Source: Flavivirga amylovorans (GTDB lineage Bacteria; Bacteroidota; Bacteroidia; Flavobacteriales; Flavobacteriaceae). Taken from it: 64,000 bases of DNA. Of the stretch, positions 2,772 to 60,494 are shown in pieces. Positions within the stretch are counted from its first letter, which is position 1, and the number at the start of each line of letters is the position of its first letter. Under the pieces are notes generated by a model. That model did no database searches, was not told where the DNA came from, and worked only from the letters and a program-made list of their open reading frames with translations. The stretch spans positions 62,001-126,000 of the forward strand of contig NZ_JAUOEM010000007.1 in NCBI RefSeq assembly GCF_030540875.1. The letters run 5' to 3'. Position numbers and translations under genes: made by a program.

Positions 2772-3818
2772 ATGAATAAGTTATTTGTTGTTTTTCCAAT
2801 TTCAGGCCCAAACAATGGTGTTAAGATTATATCTAACCATATCATTGAAAAATTAAGAGATAAAGGAGTTAATTTAGAATTAATCGATTTAGCCCAAGCT
2901 AGAGAATTTAGTAATTTTGGAAGGTTTGAGTTTTCTAAGGTAATACAATCTTTTAAAATATTATTGAAGATATTGAGTATTCCCAGAAAATCATTTGTAT
3001 ACATTAATTTTACAGCAAAAGGTTTTGCATACTATAGAGATTTATTTTTTATTATTACTAGTAAATTTTTATCACATAAAATTACACTTCATATACATGA
3101 AAATGGACATGAAAATAGGAGTTCAACATTTCTAAAGAAACTCTTGAAAAATATCAATGTTGTAGTAATAAATAAAAGGCAATTACGGAATTTGAGTTAT
3201 TTAAATAATATTTATTTATTAGATAATTCTTTACCAGATTACAATACAAATAACAGCACAGACACTAAACAGCAAAAACTGTTGTTTTTTTCTAATTTAT
3301 CGATTTTAAAAGGAATTGACTTTCTGTGTGACTTTTGTGATTTAATGTATAAAGAAATGAAAACCCCCTATAAATTAACTATATGTGGAGGTGTTTTAGA
3401 TGCTTATACGGAGCAAAGGTTGAATTGTCTTTTGAAAAAATATAATTTTATTGAATATTTGGGTGCTATAGAAAGTGTAGAAGAGAAAAAGAAAATCTTT
3501 CAAAAACATTCATTACTTTTGTTTACTAGTGAAGAGAATTCTGAAGTGTATCCCTTGGTTTACATAGAAGCTCTTATGTTTGGCTTGGGAATCATTACAA
3601 CAAAACAGGTCGTTAGTCAAAAAGTCGTAAGAAACGGGAATGGGCTTATAATAAGTGAAATCAATAAAGAAGTGTTTTCTGATATAAATAGTTTGCTGTC
3701 TACAAATGTAGATGAGAAATCTAGACAATTATATTTGAAAGGCTATTCTTTTGAAGATTTTATTTCTAATTTATATAAAATAATATTTAGAGAGGATGAT
3801 AAATTTCGAACAAATTGA
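2772..3818 (+). CDS. Glycosyltransferase family 4 protein
   Basis: The 348-residue protein has an N-terminal glycine-rich loop ('FPISGPNNGV', residues 8-17) and a C-terminal GT-B domain. E258 and E266 ('SEVYPLVYIEALMFG') form the E-x7-E motif of GT4 retaining glycosyltransferases, which contacts the donor nucleotide sugar. It would add one sugar to the lipid-linked repeat unit in the cytoplasm. It starts 7 bases after the preceding stop and its last 23 bases overlap the next gene, so it belongs to the same transcription unit. Donor and acceptor cannot be told from the sequence. Confidence 0.75.
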   Translation: MNKLFVVFPISGPNNGVKIISNHIIEKLRDKGVNLELIDLAQAREFSNFGRFEFSKVIQSFKILLKILSIPRKSFVYINFTAKGFAYYRDLFFIITSKFLSHKITLHIHENGHENRSSTFLKKLLKNINVVVINKRQLRNLSYLNNIYLLDNSLPDYNTNNSTDTKQQKLLFFSNLSILKGIDFLCDFCDLMYKEMKTPYKLTICGGVLDAYTEQRLNCLLKKYNFIEYLGAIESVEEKKKIFQKHSLLLFTSEENSEVYPLVYIEALMFGLGIITTKQVVSQKVVRNGNGLIISEINKEVFSDINSLLSTNVDEKSRQLYLKGYSFEDFISNLYKIIFREDDKFRTN

Positions 3819-55152: not shown

Positions 55153-56832
55153 CTAGAATTTAATGGCAAACCCTGTATAAACCCCTATAAAGTAAGGTTT
55201 AAAGTCGCCAGATGTATTATTGAATGTGTTAATTTGATATTTGAACATAGGTTCTAAATTCAAGTCTATTTTTTTAGATACTTTATAATTTAAACCTAAT
55301 CCTAAATTAGCACTATAACTTATTTTATTTATATTATTTGCTTCACCTAAAAATGTTCTTCCACCTTCTTGCGAATCAGAGAATATTCTATTATTGCTTA
55401 AAAAGAATGAGCTAAACCCTCCAATAAGATTTACACCTAGTTTTTTATCTGAAAGCGCGTACTCAATTTCTAAAGGAACTTCTATATAACCTAAATCTTG
55501 ATTAATAGAACTGTTAGATGTTGAAAATGCTTCAGGAATTTCATTTGCATTTAGACTCTCTCCACTAATAAATACGTTATCTGAAGAGGCCTCAGTATTA
55601 CTAACGTTCGACGTTTTTACAGAATTAACATTTTGAAATGAGCGGCTACTTGAAGATACCCCTACAACTTGAAAAGAAACTATGTTGTTAGTATTATAGC
55701 CTAAATTAACTTTGTTAATCCCAGAACGGATACTTAACTTTTTATTAATGGCATAACTAGCAGAAATACCATAACTCATATTAAGTTCACCACTTTTAGA
55801 ATTACTATTTAATTGAGGGTCTATGGAAGAACCTTTACCAAGCGTGTTAAAGTAAACAGGCGCAGCATTTGGGGAGATACTCCACCTATTTACGTTATCA
55901 TCTTCTTCAATAATATCTTTAGTTTTATCTATGGCCTCTTCTATAGTAAGACTATTTTTTTTAGAGTCATCACTAATTGCAGTGTCCGTGTTTCTAGCTT
56001 CGGTTTTTGCGATAGCATGGTTGTTTTCTGAAGCGTCACCAATGATTTTTTTAGCTTGCTCTTTATCGATTAATGATTCTTTATTTTTTTGAATGCCATT
56101 ATCATGATTTTTATTTTCAGAATCGATGTTAGAAGCAATGGCGGTAGTGTTTTGTAATGGATTTACATAACGCTTCTCTTTGGGATTATCTGCAATAACA
56201 GCATTCTTTTTAGAATCATCAACCATCCCATTGCTGTTGTTTTTTTCTTTAAGATTATTCGCAACAGTATGACTACTTTCTTCTGTGTCTAATAATTTGT
56301 TGGCAGCAGCATGCTGTTTTTTATTACTTGAACTGTTAGATAGGCTATTTTCAATTTTGCTATCATTCCCTAGAGTAGCAGGTGTTTCAGCAACTGATGC
56401 TTCTTTTGAAGTAATTATTTGATTAGATAAGAGATCTTTTTGAGTAGCAATATTGTCTAGTCCTTCATTTTTATTATCGTCACTACTGTCGGTCTTTGCA
56501 ATAGCATTATCTTTTTCTATATTATCTAAATTATTAGGATTGTCTTTTTCAGATTCAGAATTTATAGGCAGTGTTGTATCTTCAGTATTTACGATTTTAT
56601 TGGTTGGTTGAGCGCTGTCAGTATTATCAAAATAAATACCACCAACAGTTAATAATAGTAATAATAATGCTGCAACACCAGCATAACGCCACCAAATAGG
56701 GATAACACGACGTTTTTTCTCTTTTTGGTTAAGCTTAGCCTCTATATTTTCCCAAACAGCATCACTAGGTGCGGCTTCAAAATCTTTAAAGCCCTCCTGG
56801 AATAATCTGTCAATATGTTTTTTATCACTCAT
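55153..56832 (-). CDS. Anti-sigma-like membrane protein with C-terminal outer-membrane beta-barrel
   Basis: The 559-residue protein has a short cytoplasmic head ('RLFQEGFKDFEAAPSDAVWENIEAKL' in parts, about 9-34) like the anti-sigma region of Bacteroidota sigma-linked proteins, one membrane helix (about 50-66, 'YAGVAALLLLLLTVGGIYF'), a very long Asn/Asp/Ser/Lys-rich linker (70-315) and a C-terminal beta-barrel-like domain ('YGISASYAINKKLSIRSGIN', ending in 'GVYTGFAIKF'). The end in Phe fits an outer-membrane barrel. A protein with one inner-membrane helix, a disordered periplasm-crossing linker and an outer-membrane barrel could bridge the envelope. It overlaps the ECF sigma gene by one base. 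Confidence 0.8.
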   Translation of the reverse strand: MSDKKHIDRLFQEGFKDFEAAPSDAVWENIEAKLNQKEKKRRVIPIWWRYAGVAALLLLLLTVGGIYFDNTDSAQPTNKIVNTEDTTLPINSESEKDNPNNLDNIEKDNAIAKTDSSDDNKNEGLDNIATQKDLLSNQIITSKEASVAETPATLGNDSKIENSLSNSSSNKKQHAAANKLLDTEESSHTVANNLKEKNNSNGMVDDSKKNAVIADNPKEKRYVNPLQNTTAIASNIDSENKNHDNGIQKNKESLIDKEQAKKIIGDASENNHAIAKTEARNTDTAISDDSKKNSLTIEEAIDKTKDIIEEDDNVNRWSISPNAAPVYFNTLGKGSSIDPQLNSNSKSGELNMSYGISASYAINKKLSIRSGINKVNLGYNTNNIVSFQVVGVSSSSRSFQNVNSVKTSNVSNTEASSDNVFISGESLNANEIPEAFSTSNSSINQDLGYIEVPLEIEYALSDKKLGVNLIGGFSSFFLSNNRIFSDSQEGGRTFLGEANNINKISYSANLGLGLNYKVSKKIDLNLEPMFKYQINTFNNTSGDFKPYFIGVYTGFAIKF

Positions 56833-57374
56833 TATAATGATTGTAAACTTTGCATGGTCTTGTAATTCTCAATAGTCTCCTTCAAACTAATTCTGGCACG
56901 AGCCAAATTAGATTTAGAGGTTCCTATATTTATATCTAGCATATCTGCTATATCTTTATGTGAATAACCATCTAATACATACAGATTAAAAACTAATCTA
57001 TATCTGTCTGGTAATTCTTGAATGATTTTCAAAAGATAATCAATGGACACCGTGTCTTCATCAACCTCTAATTCAACATCTTCAATTATATTTTCATTTA
57101 TAATATCAAAAACCTTTTCGTTTCTGTATCGTTGCAATACTGTATTTATAGTAATGCGTTTTAACCAACCTTCAAAAGAACCTTTATTTTTATACTGTTC
57201 AATTTTTTTGAAAATTGTTAAAAATGCATCTTGCAGATTGTCTTCTGCTTCAACACGATTTCGTGAATACTTCAAGCATAAAGAGAATAGTTTACTCGAA
57301 AAGAGTTTATATAGTTCTCCTTGGGCTTTAGTATCATTAATTTTACAATTTTCTATGAGTTGGTTTAAACTCAA
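56832..57374 (-). CDS. ECF RNA polymerase sigma factor
   Basis: The 180-residue sigma-70 family protein has region 2 ('AEDNLQDAFLTIFKKIEQYK', 'SFEGWLKRITINTVLQRYR', about 42-82) and region 4 ('LPDRYRLVFNLYVLDGYSHK', 'DIADMLDINIGTSKSNLARA', about 115-160); no region 3, as in ECF factors. The start is TTG at 57374. It lies between a lipoprotein gene (34 bases upstream) and the barrel protein (one-base overlap), so all three are one operon, headed by the GCAACC/CATCTA promoter at 57856-57882. Confidence 0.93.
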   Translation of the reverse strand: MSLNQLIENCKINDTKAQGELYKLFSSKLFSLCLKYSRNRVEAEDNLQDAFLTIFKKIEQYKNKGSFEGWLKRITINTVLQRYRNEKVFDIINENIIEDVELEVDEDTVSIDYLLKIIQELPDRYRLVFNLYVLDGYSHKDIADMLDINIGTSKSNLARARISLKETIENYKTMQSLQSL

Positions 57375-57408: not shown

Positions 57409-57816
57409 TTATTCAACTACCGGTACTTCAATTGTTAAAAATTGATCTTCACCATCTGTGTCTTCACCTTGCCAAAATTTAAAAATATAAGAACCGTTAC
57501 TTGTAACTATAAAGTTGAAAGTAGATTCTACTAGTTCACTTTCTAAGGTCTGGCAATCGTTCCTTTCAAAAAGATAGTTTATCGGCGCAACAGTTCGTTG
57601 ATTATTTTCTTTTAAGTAATAAAACTCTTTGAACGTGTGACAAGTTGTTGGCCTAAGGTAAGAAACAGTCATTGGGTATGTTTCTCCCAAAGTAAATTCA
57701 CTAGGGATATCAACACTCTCAACTGGTAAAATTTCAAAACTAAAATTTGGTCCATCATCAACACTACATGAGACAAGTAATAGGACCGTAAAACAAAAAA
57801 CAAAAAACTTTTTCAT
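57409..57816 (-). CDS. Hypothetical lipoprotein heading the ECF sigma operon
   Basis: I do not recognise the family. From ATG 57816 the protein has 135 residues with a lipoprotein signal (lipobox 'LLVSC' at about C17), then a beta-rich domain with two cysteines ('TTCHTFKEF', 'NDCQTLES') and a C-terminal 'SYIFKFWQGEDTDGEDQFLT'. It should sit in the periplasm or outer membrane. The frame is open to 57873, but those codons cover the promoter. Position as the first gene of the sigma operon suggests a regulator-sensor or target of the stress response. Confidence 0.7.
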   Translation of the reverse strand: MKKFFVFCFTVLLLVSCSVDDGPNFSFEILPVESVDIPSEFTLGETYPMTVSYLRPTTCHTFKEFYYLKENNQRTVAPINYLFERNDCQTLESELVESTFNFIVTSNGSYIFKFWQGEDTDGEDQFLTIEVPVVE

Positions 57817-57855: not shown

Positions 57856-57882
57856 TAGATGCACAATGGGCAAAAAGGTTGC
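57856..57882 (-). promoter_or_regulatory. Candidate ECF sigma promoter A (GCAACC-N15-CATCTA)
   Basis: On the minus strand GCAACC (57882-57877) and CATCTA (57861-57856) are separated by 15 bases. Transcription would start about 33 bases before the lipoprotein ATG at 57816. The same motif, spacing and first six spacer bases (TTTTTG) recur at 59059-59085. Confidence 0.7.
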
Positions 57883-57892
57883 GTATAAAAAT

Positions 57893-57921
57893 AAAAAATC
57901 CCGAATTAACGGGATTTTTTT
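57893..57921. terminator. Bidirectional terminator downstream of recA
   Basis: AAAAAATCCCG and CGGGATTTTTT pair around AATTAA. It lies two bases after the recA stop on the minus strand and separates recA from the sigma operon promoter. Confidence 0.88.
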
Positions 57922-57923
57922 AA

Positions 57924-58922
57924 CTATTCTGTTACTAATTTTCTAACTTTTCCTTCGAGCTCGTCCATGAGCTCGGGGTTATCTTTAATGAGCGCTTTTA
58001 CAGCATCTCGCCCTTGCCCTAGCTTGGTGTCCTCATAACTAAACCAGGAACCGCTTTTCTTTACGATTTCATGTTCTACAGCTAAATCTAATACTTCACC
58101 AACTTTAGAGACGCCTTCTCCATACATGATATCAAATTCAGCCATTTTAAAAGGAGGAGCCACTTTATTTTTAACCACTTTTACTCGGGTTTTGTTACCA
58201 GCAACACTACCATCTGTTTCTTTAATTTGAGTTGAACGTCTTATGTCTAACCTAACAGAAGCGTAGAATTTTAAGGCATTACCACCAGTAGTTGTTTCTG
58301 GGTTACCAAACATAACACCAATTTTTTCACGCAATTGGTTAATGAATATAACCGTACAGTTGGTTTTACTAATAGAGCCAGTAAGTTTCCTTAAAGCCTG
58401 AGACATTAAGCGGGCATGTAAACCCATTTTAGAGTCTCCCATTTCACCTTCAATTTCACTTTTAGGTGTTAATGCTGCCACAGAGTCAACCACCACAATA
58501 TCAATAGCTCCAGAGCGAATTAAATTATCGGCAATCTCAAGAGCCTGCTCACCATTATCTGGTTGCGATATAATTAAGTTATCAATATCTACTCCAAGTT
58601 TTTCAGCATAAAATCTATCAAAAGCATGTTCAGCATCAATAAAGGCAGCAATGCCACCAGCTTTTTGAGCTTCAGCAATAGCATGTAGTGTAAGCGTGGT
58701 TTTACCAGAAGATTCCGGACCATAAATCTCTATAACACGTCCGCGCGGATAACCTCCAACGCCTAAAGCAATATCTAAACCTAAAGAGCCAGATGAAATG
58801 GCTTCTACATCTTGTACGGCTGCATCGCTCATTTTCATTACAGTTCCTTTGCCGTATGCTTTATCTAATTTATCTAATGTAAGTTTAAGTGCTTTTAATT
58901 TAGCTTCTTTTTCGCTGCTCAT
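57924..58922 (-). CDS. recA: Recombinase RecA
   Basis: Strand exchange and SOS coprotease. The 332-residue protein has Walker A 'GPESSGKTT' (68-76), 'FIDAEHAFD' (about 94-102), '[18 protein letters not shown]' and loop-2 '[31 protein letters not shown]' in parts. Length is slightly under the usual 340-350 because the acidic tail is short. No SOS box of the gammaproteobacterial type is seen upstream. Confidence 0.97.
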
Positions 58923-59058
58923 TTATAATTTTTTTTCTCTAGTTATGCTTGCTAAAATACTACATCTTTTATCATGATACAATAATAGTTTTCAACATAA
59001 ATTTAGAAGCAAAAAAGCTTATTTATTAACTCTAGAAATAAAAATAAGTAACCTGCAC

Positions 59059-59085
59059 GCAACCTTTTTGCATATTTTACATCTA
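59059..59085 (+). promoter_or_regulatory. Candidate ECF sigma promoter B (GCAACC-N15-CATCTA)
   Basis: GCAACC (59059-59064) and CATCTA (59080-59085) are spaced by 15 bases exactly as in promoter A. The match extends over ACGCAACCTTTTTGC. The start codon of the small ORF lies 39 bases after CATCTA, against 40 in promoter A. Confidence 0.68.
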
Positions 59086-59123
59086 TTAGTAAAGTGGGAA
59101 ATTTTGCTATGAAGAAGAATTAA

Positions 59124-59216
59124 ATGAAATTTTTCAAACAAACAATTTTAATAAACGCATTAGGTGTTTCAGTTACTGTTATTGTAAATAGTAACTGTAA
59201 AGCCGATGGTGGCTAA
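59124..59216 (+). CDS. Isolated 30-residue small protein
   Basis: The ORF encodes MKFFKQTILINALGVSVTVI followed by VNSNCKADGG: a basic start, a hydrophobic stretch and a Cys-containing end, like a bare signal peptide or tiny membrane peptide. The ORF is too short to judge by similarity. It is credible because it sits between an ECF-type promoter and a terminator and nothing else lies in the unit. Alternatively the transcript is a small regulatory RNA. Confidence 0.5.
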   Translation: MKFFKQTILINALGVSVTVIVNSNCKADGG

Positions 59217-59274
59217 ATTCGTGGGATATTAGTTAGAGAAAATAAATTAATATTTTAACCACGGATTAGTCAAG

Positions 59275-59310
59275 AAAAAACACTTTGTTAGACATAAGGT
59301 GTTTTTTTTA
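59275..59310 (+). terminator. Rho-independent terminator of the small-ORF unit
   Basis: AAAAAACACTT (59275-59285) and AAGGTGTTTT (from 59296) can pair with one bulge, and eight T follow. It lies 58 bases after the small ORF stop. Confidence 0.75.
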
Positions 59311-59465
59311 TTAAAGAAAACTCCAGTTGTGTGGAGTTTAAACGAGATTTATTTTTTAGAGATAAATATCGGAAAGCTTGCCCTAGAGAATTTACTTTCC
59401 CACTTCTGTTTAAAATTGTACTTTTGCGCTTTAAAATAGTCTTTAACCTTATAAATTAGTATAGC

Positions 59466-60494
59466 ATGCAACTGTACAATAAATTAAGCGCGAAAGAAAG
59501 AGCCGAATTAATTGATAAAGCAGGAAAAAATCGATTAACGCTTTCTTTTTACCAATACGCCAAAATTGGCAATCCGCAAATTTTTAGAGATCACCTGTTC
59601 ATTACCTGGAACTCATTAGATGTTCTAGGAAGAATCTATGTCGCTCATGAAGGTATTAATGGTCAACTATCATTACCGGCAGATCGCTTTAATGAATTTA
59701 AAACTCATTTAGATACCATTTCATTTTTAAAAGATATTCGATTAAATGTTGCTATAGAGCAAGACAACAAATCGTTTTTAAAGTTAAAAGTAAAGGTGCG
59801 TAATAAAATTGTTGCAGATGGTTTAAATGATGATACGTTTGATGTAACCAATAAAGGGGTTCATGTAGGTGCAGAAGCGTTTAATGAGCTTATAGAAGAT
59901 GAAAAGACGGTTTTGGTAGATATGCGTAACCATTACGAGAGCGAGATTGGACATTTTAAAAATGCCATAACACCAGATGTAGATACTTTTAGAGAATCTT
60001 TAGACATTATTGAAGACGATTTAAAACCCCACAAAGAAGATAAAAACCTTGTTATGTATTGCACAGGAGGTATTCGTTGTGAAAAAGCAAGTGCCTACTT
60101 TAAACATAAAGGGTTTAAAAACGTATATCAATTAGAAGGAGGTATTATTGAATATACAAGACAGGTAAAAGAAGAAAACCTGGAGAATAAGTTTTTAGGC
60201 CAAAATTTTGTTTTTGATGATCGAAGAGCAGAGCGTATTAGTGATGATGTTATAGCTAATTGCCATCAATGTGGGAACCCATTTGATGTACATACTAATT
60301 GTGCTAATGCTGCTTGTCATTTATTATTTATTCAATGTGATTCTTGTAAAGAAAACATGGAAAATTGCTGTTCTACAGAATGCATGGAAATAAACAGGTT
60401 ACCCTATGAAGCGCAAAAAGAACTGCGTAAAGGACAAGGAAATAGTAATGATATTTTCAAAAAAGGAAGGTCTGAATCTTTAAAATTTAAATAG
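59466..60494 (+). CDS. trhO: Oxygen-dependent tRNA uridine-34 hydroxylase (rhodanese family)
   Basis: TrhO (YceA) makes 5-hydroxyuridine at tRNA position 34 using O2. The 342-residue protein has an N-terminal acylphosphatase-like part, a central rhodanese domain (about 137-240, 'VDMRNHYESEIGHFKNA') with the active cysteine C199 in 'MYCTGGIRCEKAS', and a Cys-rich C-terminus (262-310, several CxxC pairs) that probably binds zinc. It ends one base before trhP. Confidence 0.93.
   Translation: MQLYNKLSAKERAELIDKAGKNRLTLSFYQYAKIGNPQIFRDHLFITWNSLDVLGRIYVAHEGINGQLSLPADRFNEFKTHLDTISFLKDIRLNVAIEQDNKSFLKLKVKVRNKIVADGLNDDTFDVTNKGVHVGAEAFNELIEDEKTVLVDMRNHYESEIGHFKNAITPDVDTFRESLDIIEDDLKPHKEDKNLVMYCTGGIRCEKASAYFKHKGFKNVYQLEGGIIEYTRQVKEENLENKFLGQNFVFDDRRAERISDDVIANCHQCGNPFDVHTNCANAACHLLFIQCDSCKENMENCCSTECMEINRLPYEAQKELRKGQGNSNDIFKKGRSESLKFK

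Follow-up and report, generated by a model that had tools for sequence, protein, structure and literature searches.

A candidate ECF sigma factor regulon in Flavobacteriaceae comprising lipoproteins and a structured RNA/micropeptide unit beside recA

The window, i.e., the whole stretch of 64,000 nucleotides from Flavivirga amylovorans that was analyzed, contains a three-gene operon for a small lipoprotein, an ECF sigma factor, and an anti-sigma candidate, which is followed by recA, a short RNA/peptide unit, and trhO. The features are listed below.

55153..56832, minus strand: Dma/Reo-like anti-sigma candidate, operon gene 3, assigned by predicted structure
56832..57374, minus strand: ECF sigma factor with TTG start; Sigma70_r2 and Sigma70_r4_2
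57409..57816, minus strand: small lipoprotein (MKKFF...SCSVDDG), operon gene 1; present in 21/21 recA loci including the window
57856..57882, minus strand: putative ECF-type promoter of the lipoprotein-sigma-anti-sigma operon (GCAACC-N15-CATCTA); exact motif, with matching sites before 16/20 protein-chosen ECF orthologs
57924..58922, minus strand: recA, conserved neighbour, given as context
59059..59085, plus strand: putative ECF-type promoter of the RNA/peptide unit; promoter-like in 77/81 aligned orthologs, exact in 75/80 named loci
59086..59108, plus strand: 5' leader element (GGGAAA..TTGCT); GCTAT at offset 20-24 from CATCTA in 51/76 loci
59109..59123, plus strand: upstream mini-ORF MKKN (4 codons, ATG 59109), whose stop codon abuts the ATG of the 30-codon ORF
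59124..59216, plus strand: 30-codon ORF MKFFKQTILINALGVSVTVIVNSNCKADGG with its stop codon; conserved micropeptide family
59158..59208, plus strand: hairpin H2, lying within the ORF, with inner stem 59170-59197 and flanks GGUGUUU / UAAAGCC; fold and covariation
59211..59271, plus strand: hairpin H3, whose 5' strand overlaps the stop codon (GGCUAA / UUAGUC); fold and covariation
59275..59309, plus strand: intrinsic terminator H4; sequence, fold, and covariation
59466..60494, plus strand: trhO, conserved neighbour; NCBIfam TrhO

The recA-adjacent unit reads as an independent RNA of about 220 nt, ended by the terminator at about 59275-59309 that had already been proposed to close it. A TAnnTTTG box at 59419-59426, ahead of trhO, presumably represents a housekeeping promoter of trhO itself. 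Among the 76 leader loci, several of those without GCTAT at offset 20-24 carry variants of it or end there.

Both promoter-like sites are exact copies of GCAACC-N15-CATCTA (57882-57856 on the minus strand and 59059-59085 on the plus strand), which have ACGCAACCTTTTTGC and the N15 spacer in common. The distance from CATCTA to the start codon is 39 nt for the operon lipoprotein (ATG 57816) and 38 nt for the 30-codon ORF (ATG 59124). The first-pass annotation had described two identical copies at equal distance (within one base) from the start codon and had seen no third copy, and this description was borne out: two exact copies compare to 0.01 expected by chance, none of 100 shuffles of the window gave two of them, and the sole further match at up to two mismatches (3397-3423, L142) sits opposite a long open frame.

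The whole genome (4.86 Mb) contains six exact copies: the two before the window genes and four others before lipoprotein genes or a 28-codon ORF, at a distance of 17-39 nt in every case. With one mismatch allowed, 34 sites were obtained, compared to 10 for the reversed pattern. Nine of the 28 added sites precede lipoprotein genes (L119, L123, L126, L132, L135, L137, L140, L143, and L144) and show -10 variants such as CATCTT and TATCTA; 16 of the remaining 19 overlap long open frames on either strand. Spacers of 11-19 nt yielded 142 matches in 12 genomes of the same genus; N15 accounted for 85 of these and any other length for at most 15. We further applied a rule-based classifier to a wider sample of 64 sites, consisting of 60 non-recA sites among the matches listed for relatives and four other sites of the own genome. 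A lipoprotein start follows 46 of these sites, the same 28-aa membrane peptide follows 10, and neither follows the remaining 8; at 20 of the 57 wrong-spacing sites, the same classifier detected no lipoprotein at all. Random scatter, which would have spoken against the proposed promoter, is thus not what we observed, and a chance origin of the motif is ruled out by the shuffles, the spacing, the wrong-spacing sites, and the protein-selected loci described below. Judged by sequence comparison, GCAACC-N15-CATCTA behaves as the promoter of a mostly-lipoprotein regulon, so that the regulon suggested earlier stands, with a size much larger than the two units then noted.

A Pfam scan of ten regulon members from the own genome (three with exact and seven with one-mismatch sites) returned DUF6970, DUF5004, and peptidase M43 once each and one weak match to a prolyl-oligopeptidase-type hydrolase; the other six had no match. 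A second micropeptide, MKILIIISILIVVNLILLTFSVNKRTDP, has 28 aa and one likely membrane span, and is encoded at C12:66115 of the own genome (L005) and at L338-L355. When the 28-aa units were collected by protein similarity alone, a promoter-like site was present upstream of 17/18 strong copies. In most of the 18 strong copies, the terminator stem takes its 5' arm from the last codons of the peptide gene, and G054:C5:93095 and 93244 appear to be tandem genes for the 28-aa peptide, the second copy being weaker.

For the recA-side unit, we inspected the recA loci of 20 relatives, 17 of which were chosen for motifs flanking recA on both sides and three for one motif. The motif of the small unit is exact in all 20 and that of the operon in 17, the other three having TATCTA or CATCTT. 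Including the window, the ORF is intact at 16 of the 21 recA loci, frame-broken at four (of 12 same-genus genomes), and absent in L046. From 20 of the 21 loci, we derived a covariance model that matched 108 of 397 family genomes, a tally that includes some false matches, since L414, L419, and L420 are neither beside recA nor equipped with a promoter; the order-wide search gave matches in 5/296 genomes, all five from the same family. Searching 82 source loci with the model resulted in 81 aligned members and none in L046, with an alignment that leans to the model's own input structure and a search that structure-less members would escape. A promoter-like site lies upstream of 77 of the 81 aligned members (exact in 69), which supports the earlier proposal that the small unit is a second target of the sigma factor.

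Named genomes were also searched for the peptide tail, with 101 matching stretches in Flavivirga, Bizionia, Lacinutrix, Psychroserpens, Mangrovimonas, Gelidibacter, Olleya, Tamlana, and others; 80 of these were examined. All 80 loci, which were selected by the tail, contain an ORF that begins with ATG and has 26 or more codons. The promoter is exact in 75 of them, cut off in L241 and L242, and variant in L243 and L269, and L278 has no clear -10 box. Furthermore, recA is located divergently upstream in 76 loci and trhO downstream within 1.5 kb in 73. By these comparisons, the unit is a syntenic recA - unit - trhO gene that is widespread in Flavobacteriaceae. The leader stays near the promoter, with 0 to about 230 bases between leader and peptide start, and in the window it opens the 4-codon ORF MKKN, which the first-pass annotation does not mention; the stretch from promoter to peptide ORF measures 204-253 bases in L221, L226, L232, L238, L239, L250, L254, L262, and L264, and 25-39 in the shortest loci. 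In L046 (G019), upstream of trhO, hairpin and ORF are lost and promoter, 5' leader, and terminator are kept, leaving a very short RNA. Four genomes (G017, G019, G025, and G028) have a high-scoring ECF but no match to the RNA, and an Rfam scan of the window at gathering score gave no matches.

Conservation of the RNA structure, as expected for a dual-function sRNA, is evident from covariation. The covariation score of the 81 members is 0.357, compared to 0.200 after shuffling (0/500) and at most 0.098 for slid partners. In the in-ORF stem (H2), both sides change at all 10 pairs, and H3 was scored on 6 pairs only because MAFFT misaligned its upper part between genera. The four frame-broken relatives of the same genus keep 39/40 inner-stem pairs, and one of them (L044) shows a compensatory change. 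Five members (L201, L207, L209, L213, and L215) have no ORF ending in DGG or EGG, and keep the promoter, the leader, H2-like and H3-like stems, and the terminator. Their stem letters are changed, in L215 wholly replaced, while GGYGUUU is found in 5/5 and AAGCC in 4/5. All weaker members (L195-L216, 22 including the five ORF-less ones) are located beside recA. Among 30 still weaker covariance-model matches, we inspected 27, leaving out the short loci L402, L404, and L418; 24 lie beside recA, and 20 of these have a promoter-like site. An ORF in the size range that ends in DGG or EGG is present in 11 of the 24, five more have a visible DGG end (L394, L405, L410, L411, and L416), and eight have no such end. 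Folding of these eight revealed an H2-like stem in L397, L399, L407, and L415. The other four were rejected as ORF-less members with the fold, as L395, L406, and L412 show no clear H2 and L396 forms another hairpin.

An ORF of 26-34 codons ending in DGG or EGG is found in 70/81 aligned members, and its codons point to selection at the protein level, the second property expected of a dual-function sRNA. The codon test was based on 57 distinct 30-codon ORFs with a Met start and a GG end, the latter imposed by selection. Leaving out the imposed GG, pN/pS amounts to 0.18 over codons 25-28 and 0.16 over codons 22-28, a sign of purifying selection at the end of the peptide; when the GG is counted, the value over codons 25-30 is 0.09, with a diversity of 0.32 at third positions vs 0.05 at the other two. 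For codons 2-11, pN/pS is 0.55 in the true frame and 1.59 and 0.73 in the shifted frames, and since 0.73 is near 0.55, the coding signal over this part is modest. Among intact versions, length changes come in whole codons (28, 29, or 30 aa). The peptide has a basic N-terminus and ends in [K/R]x[D/E]GG, an end that divergent peptides keep in most cases; Cys is present in 52 of the 57 ORFs and replaced by Phe or Ser in 5. The 30-aa peptide has no family match in Pfam or NCBIfam, and the string CKADGG was not found in the papers open to text search.

The selection on the peptide end, the ORF in 70/81 members, and the indels in multiples of three would all suit a plain micropeptide mRNA, with the peptide as sole product and hairpins that only stabilize the mRNA or time its translation. 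We consider this unlikely, given that the hairpin is kept in the frame-broken relatives, with the compensatory change in L044, and that promoter and fold are kept in the five ORF-less members beside recA. No role as peptide alone or as RNA alone accounts for every member, and in our reading the unit is a structured RNA under sigma control that in most cases doubles as the mRNA of a micropeptide. The choice between small peptide and sRNA, which the first-pass annotation had left open, is therefore one in which the evidence favours both.

It is doubtful that the peptide is a mini-lipoprotein, i.e., a signal peptide followed by a lipidated CKADGG. Its basic start, mostly hydrophobic core, and Cys in 52/57 resemble such a protein, as does its membership in a regulon full of lipoproteins, four of 46 of which have Asn at -1. 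Lipoproteins, however, carry a canonical lipobox before an invariant Cys, and the 30-aa peptide has Asn at -3 in 54/57 cases, compared to 2/46 regulon lipoproteins, lacks the Cys in 5/57, and has a polar core in some divergent members (L211 and L212).

Comparison of genomes shows a promoter family that tracks the sigma gene. Among 99 relatives, the exact motif was found in 51 and an ECF match at E 1e-40 in 62. Across the 60 genomes of the family, those with a higher best ECF score also contain more copies of the motif (Spearman 0.84; 0.76 outside the genus; kinship ignored). The mean count is 5.2 in 30 family genomes with at least 320 bits vs 0.12 in eight where no ECF match reached the search threshold, seven of which lack the exact motif altogether. 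As a protein-chosen test set, we used the upstream 900 bases of 20 ECF orthologs with at least 270 bits, none of which had been examined earlier. GCAAC[CT]-N15-[CT]A[TC]CT[AT] is present before 16 of the 20 (shuffled loci, 0.0002), and at some of these loci the site directly precedes the ECF gene and no intervening lipoprotein gene was detected. Near variants precede the ECF gene in L379 and L382, and no recognisable motif was detected within the 900 bases in L381 and L387. In two genomes with the operon located away from recA, the exact motif still precedes the operon. The conservation before orthologous sigma operons on which the earlier proposal depended was thus recovered.

The genomes encode up to 60 ECF-like candidates each at first look, and one of these could recognize the motif instead of, or together with, the neighbouring sigma factor. 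Recognition by another ECF, or by several, rather than specifically by the neighbouring one would accommodate the CGTCTA variant (L243) and the partially overlapping ECF regulons that the accessible part of the work of Guerin et al. suggests for Flavobacterium psychrophilum (PMC9723704). We regard this as quite improbable in view of the site before the orthologous ECF in 16/20 genomes, even without an intervening lipoprotein gene, and of the missing exact motif in 7/8 family genomes without an ECF match. The neighbouring sigma factor remains our preferred reader of the motif. A second ECF-like frame with an in-frame TAA is located at G004:C1:1788613-1789137 and is possibly a decayed paralog.

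The sigma operon is present at 21/21 recA loci including the window, in addition to two operons relocated from recA. Its lipoprotein matches no Pfam or NCBIfam family at E 0.01, and hence not NigD. Pfam and NCBIfam place the sigma factor only as ECF, with no model named ECF21 among the matches. The aligned start codon of the ECF gene in 17 orthologs is TTG in 14 and GTG in 3, never ATG, and such a non-ATG start may keep the ECF level low. For the third gene product, the predicted model (mean pLDDT 55.8, pTM 0.44) comprises two N-terminal helices with conserved residues (4-14 and 24-34; pLDDT about 50-64), a TM helix over a hydrophobic stretch (46-68; about 51-64), a disordered tether (69-296; below 50 over 69-255 and 265-296), and an OmpA-like barrel (317-559) with eight long strands between 317 and 558. 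In the barrel part, 16/25 ten-residue blocks reach at least 80. The best solved Foldseek match of the barrel was an OmpA-type barrel (E 3.4e-08), and Pfam OMP_b-brl stayed below its cut-off.

Two systems of gut bacteria come closest. Dma proteins adjoin ECF21 sigma factors, Dma2 in a three-gene operon, and loss of Dma1 raises nigD1 in Bacteroides thetaiotaomicron, according to the accessible part of the report (PMC13088901). As in Das1-Dma1 and Das2-Dma2, the ECF gene in the window adjoins an anti-sigma gene whose product would combine an N-terminal domain, a TM helix, a disordered tether, and a C-terminal barrel (PMC13088901). In contrast, Das-Dma was studied in gut Bacteroides, the accessible part of that report describes no promoter motif, RNA, or micropeptide target (PMC13088901), and the window lipoprotein has no Pfam or NCBIfam match. 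The other system is EcfO-Reo of Phocaeicola vulgatus / Bacteroides fragilis. According to the accessible parts of the reports, the pair in Phocaeicola reacts to toxins that damage the envelope, with the sigma gene 33-fold up under toxin treatment, and has NigD surface lipoproteins under its control (PMC9308784, PMC13114119). Reo spans periplasm and outer membrane, and surface lipoproteins belong to the regulon, which resembles the present case; the system differs in belonging to gut Bacteroidales and in that no small RNA or micropeptide target is described in those parts (PMC9308784, PMC13114119). By gene layout and predicted fold, the sigma system probably belongs to the Das-Dma/EcfO-Reo kind.

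In our main reading, to which we assign a probability of roughly 70%, the neighbouring ECF with its Dma/Reo-like anti-sigma reads the motif, and the regulon consists of its own operon, lipoproteins, and two micropeptide transcripts, one of which includes a structured RNA. The same start signal at the recA-side unit, the sigma operon, and many lipoprotein genes points to one shared stress response. The ECF sigma factor (56832-57374) would be held by the dual-membrane-spanning anti-sigma candidate and have a specificity for GCAACC-N15-CATCTA. The outer-membrane domain of the anti-sigma would sense envelope trouble as the signal, upon which the sigma factor would switch on its own operon together with a set of small, probably surface lipoproteins and the two micropeptide transcripts. 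The recA-side transcript would fold into a structured RNA (H2, H3, and terminator) and, in most species, probably also be translated into a peptide of 28-30 residues. More tentatively, and short of an even chance in our estimate, the dual RNA/micropeptide gene, settled between recA and trhO in much of the Flavobacteriaceae, may be the RNA arm of a Dma-type envelope-stress response. Its bases would specify both the peptide, with a near-obligatory [K/R]x[D/E]GG end, and the covarying hairpin, of which the flanks (GGYGUUU / AAGCC in most) would bind a partner, and some lineages would have dropped the peptide and kept the RNA.

An envelope-stress sigma factor that works through a small RNA is known from E. 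coli. The motif makes it testable whether a Bacteroidota envelope-stress sigma factor does so as well, and which lipoproteins belong to the regulon. The studies of Dma/EcfO-type envelope-stress sigma factors found so far are in gut Bacteroidales; for Flavobacteriaceae, the motif now supplies a concrete promoter together with a candidate regulon. Two micropeptide genes, one of which lies within a conserved RNA, are thereby added to this type of regulon. The RNA/peptide gene is tiny, unannotated, and, as far as our searches go, undescribed; the literature search, with many subscription papers beyond reach, returned no description of this promoter, RNA, or peptide.

SgrS is a dual-function sRNA with RNA-level and peptide-level constraint in one transcript, and SR1 of Bacillus subtilis, as far as its accessible description goes, shares this combination with the recA-side unit. 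Unlike in SR1 and SgrS, the hairpin lies inside the ORF in the window, and some lineages without the ORF keep the fold. Reduced to a pure regulatory sRNA with an incidental ORF, the unit would still account for the covariation, the ORF-less orthologs at the same place, and the 5' leader that is kept where the ORF start moved. We find this very unlikely, and reject it as a general reading, because of the ORF count of 70/81, the codon-position pattern with low pN/pS at the C-terminal codons, the frame-preserving indels, and the end [K/R]x[D/E]GG of most divergent peptides. We thus keep to the reading as both RNA and mRNA.

We take yceA and trhO to be the same gene. Among the Flavobacteriaceae, ECF-type promoters (SM6) have been mapped in F. 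psychrophilum, with starts at yceA and at the putative regulatory RNA Rfp11 (PMC9723704). They are distinguished by a CGT box at -10 and by genes that include type IX secretion parts instead of the lipoprotein set, and the accessible part of that report describes no element like the recA-side unit (PMC9723704). Rfp18 of the same species, compared by description only, is likewise a conserved structured flavobacterial sRNA, for which this part states neither ECF control nor an ORF (PMC9723704). The yceA start and the NCBIfam TrhO call for the window gene led us to single out a last alternative, a leader/attenuator whose terminator read-through lets the ECF promoter feed trhO. It is the least probable of all the readings weighed: trhO within 1.5 kb in 73/80 named loci and the SM6 start assigned to the yceA rhodanese gene (PMC9723704, accessible part) are set against a strong conserved terminator stem, the TAnnTTTG box before trhO in the window, and the lack of a trhO match in 5/80 named loci (L225, L234, L257, L281, and L283) with at least 1.3 kb of downstream sequence. 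As a separate observation, the SM6 yceA start of F. psychrophilum possibly lies at the counterpart of the recA-side unit (PMC9723704, accessible part).
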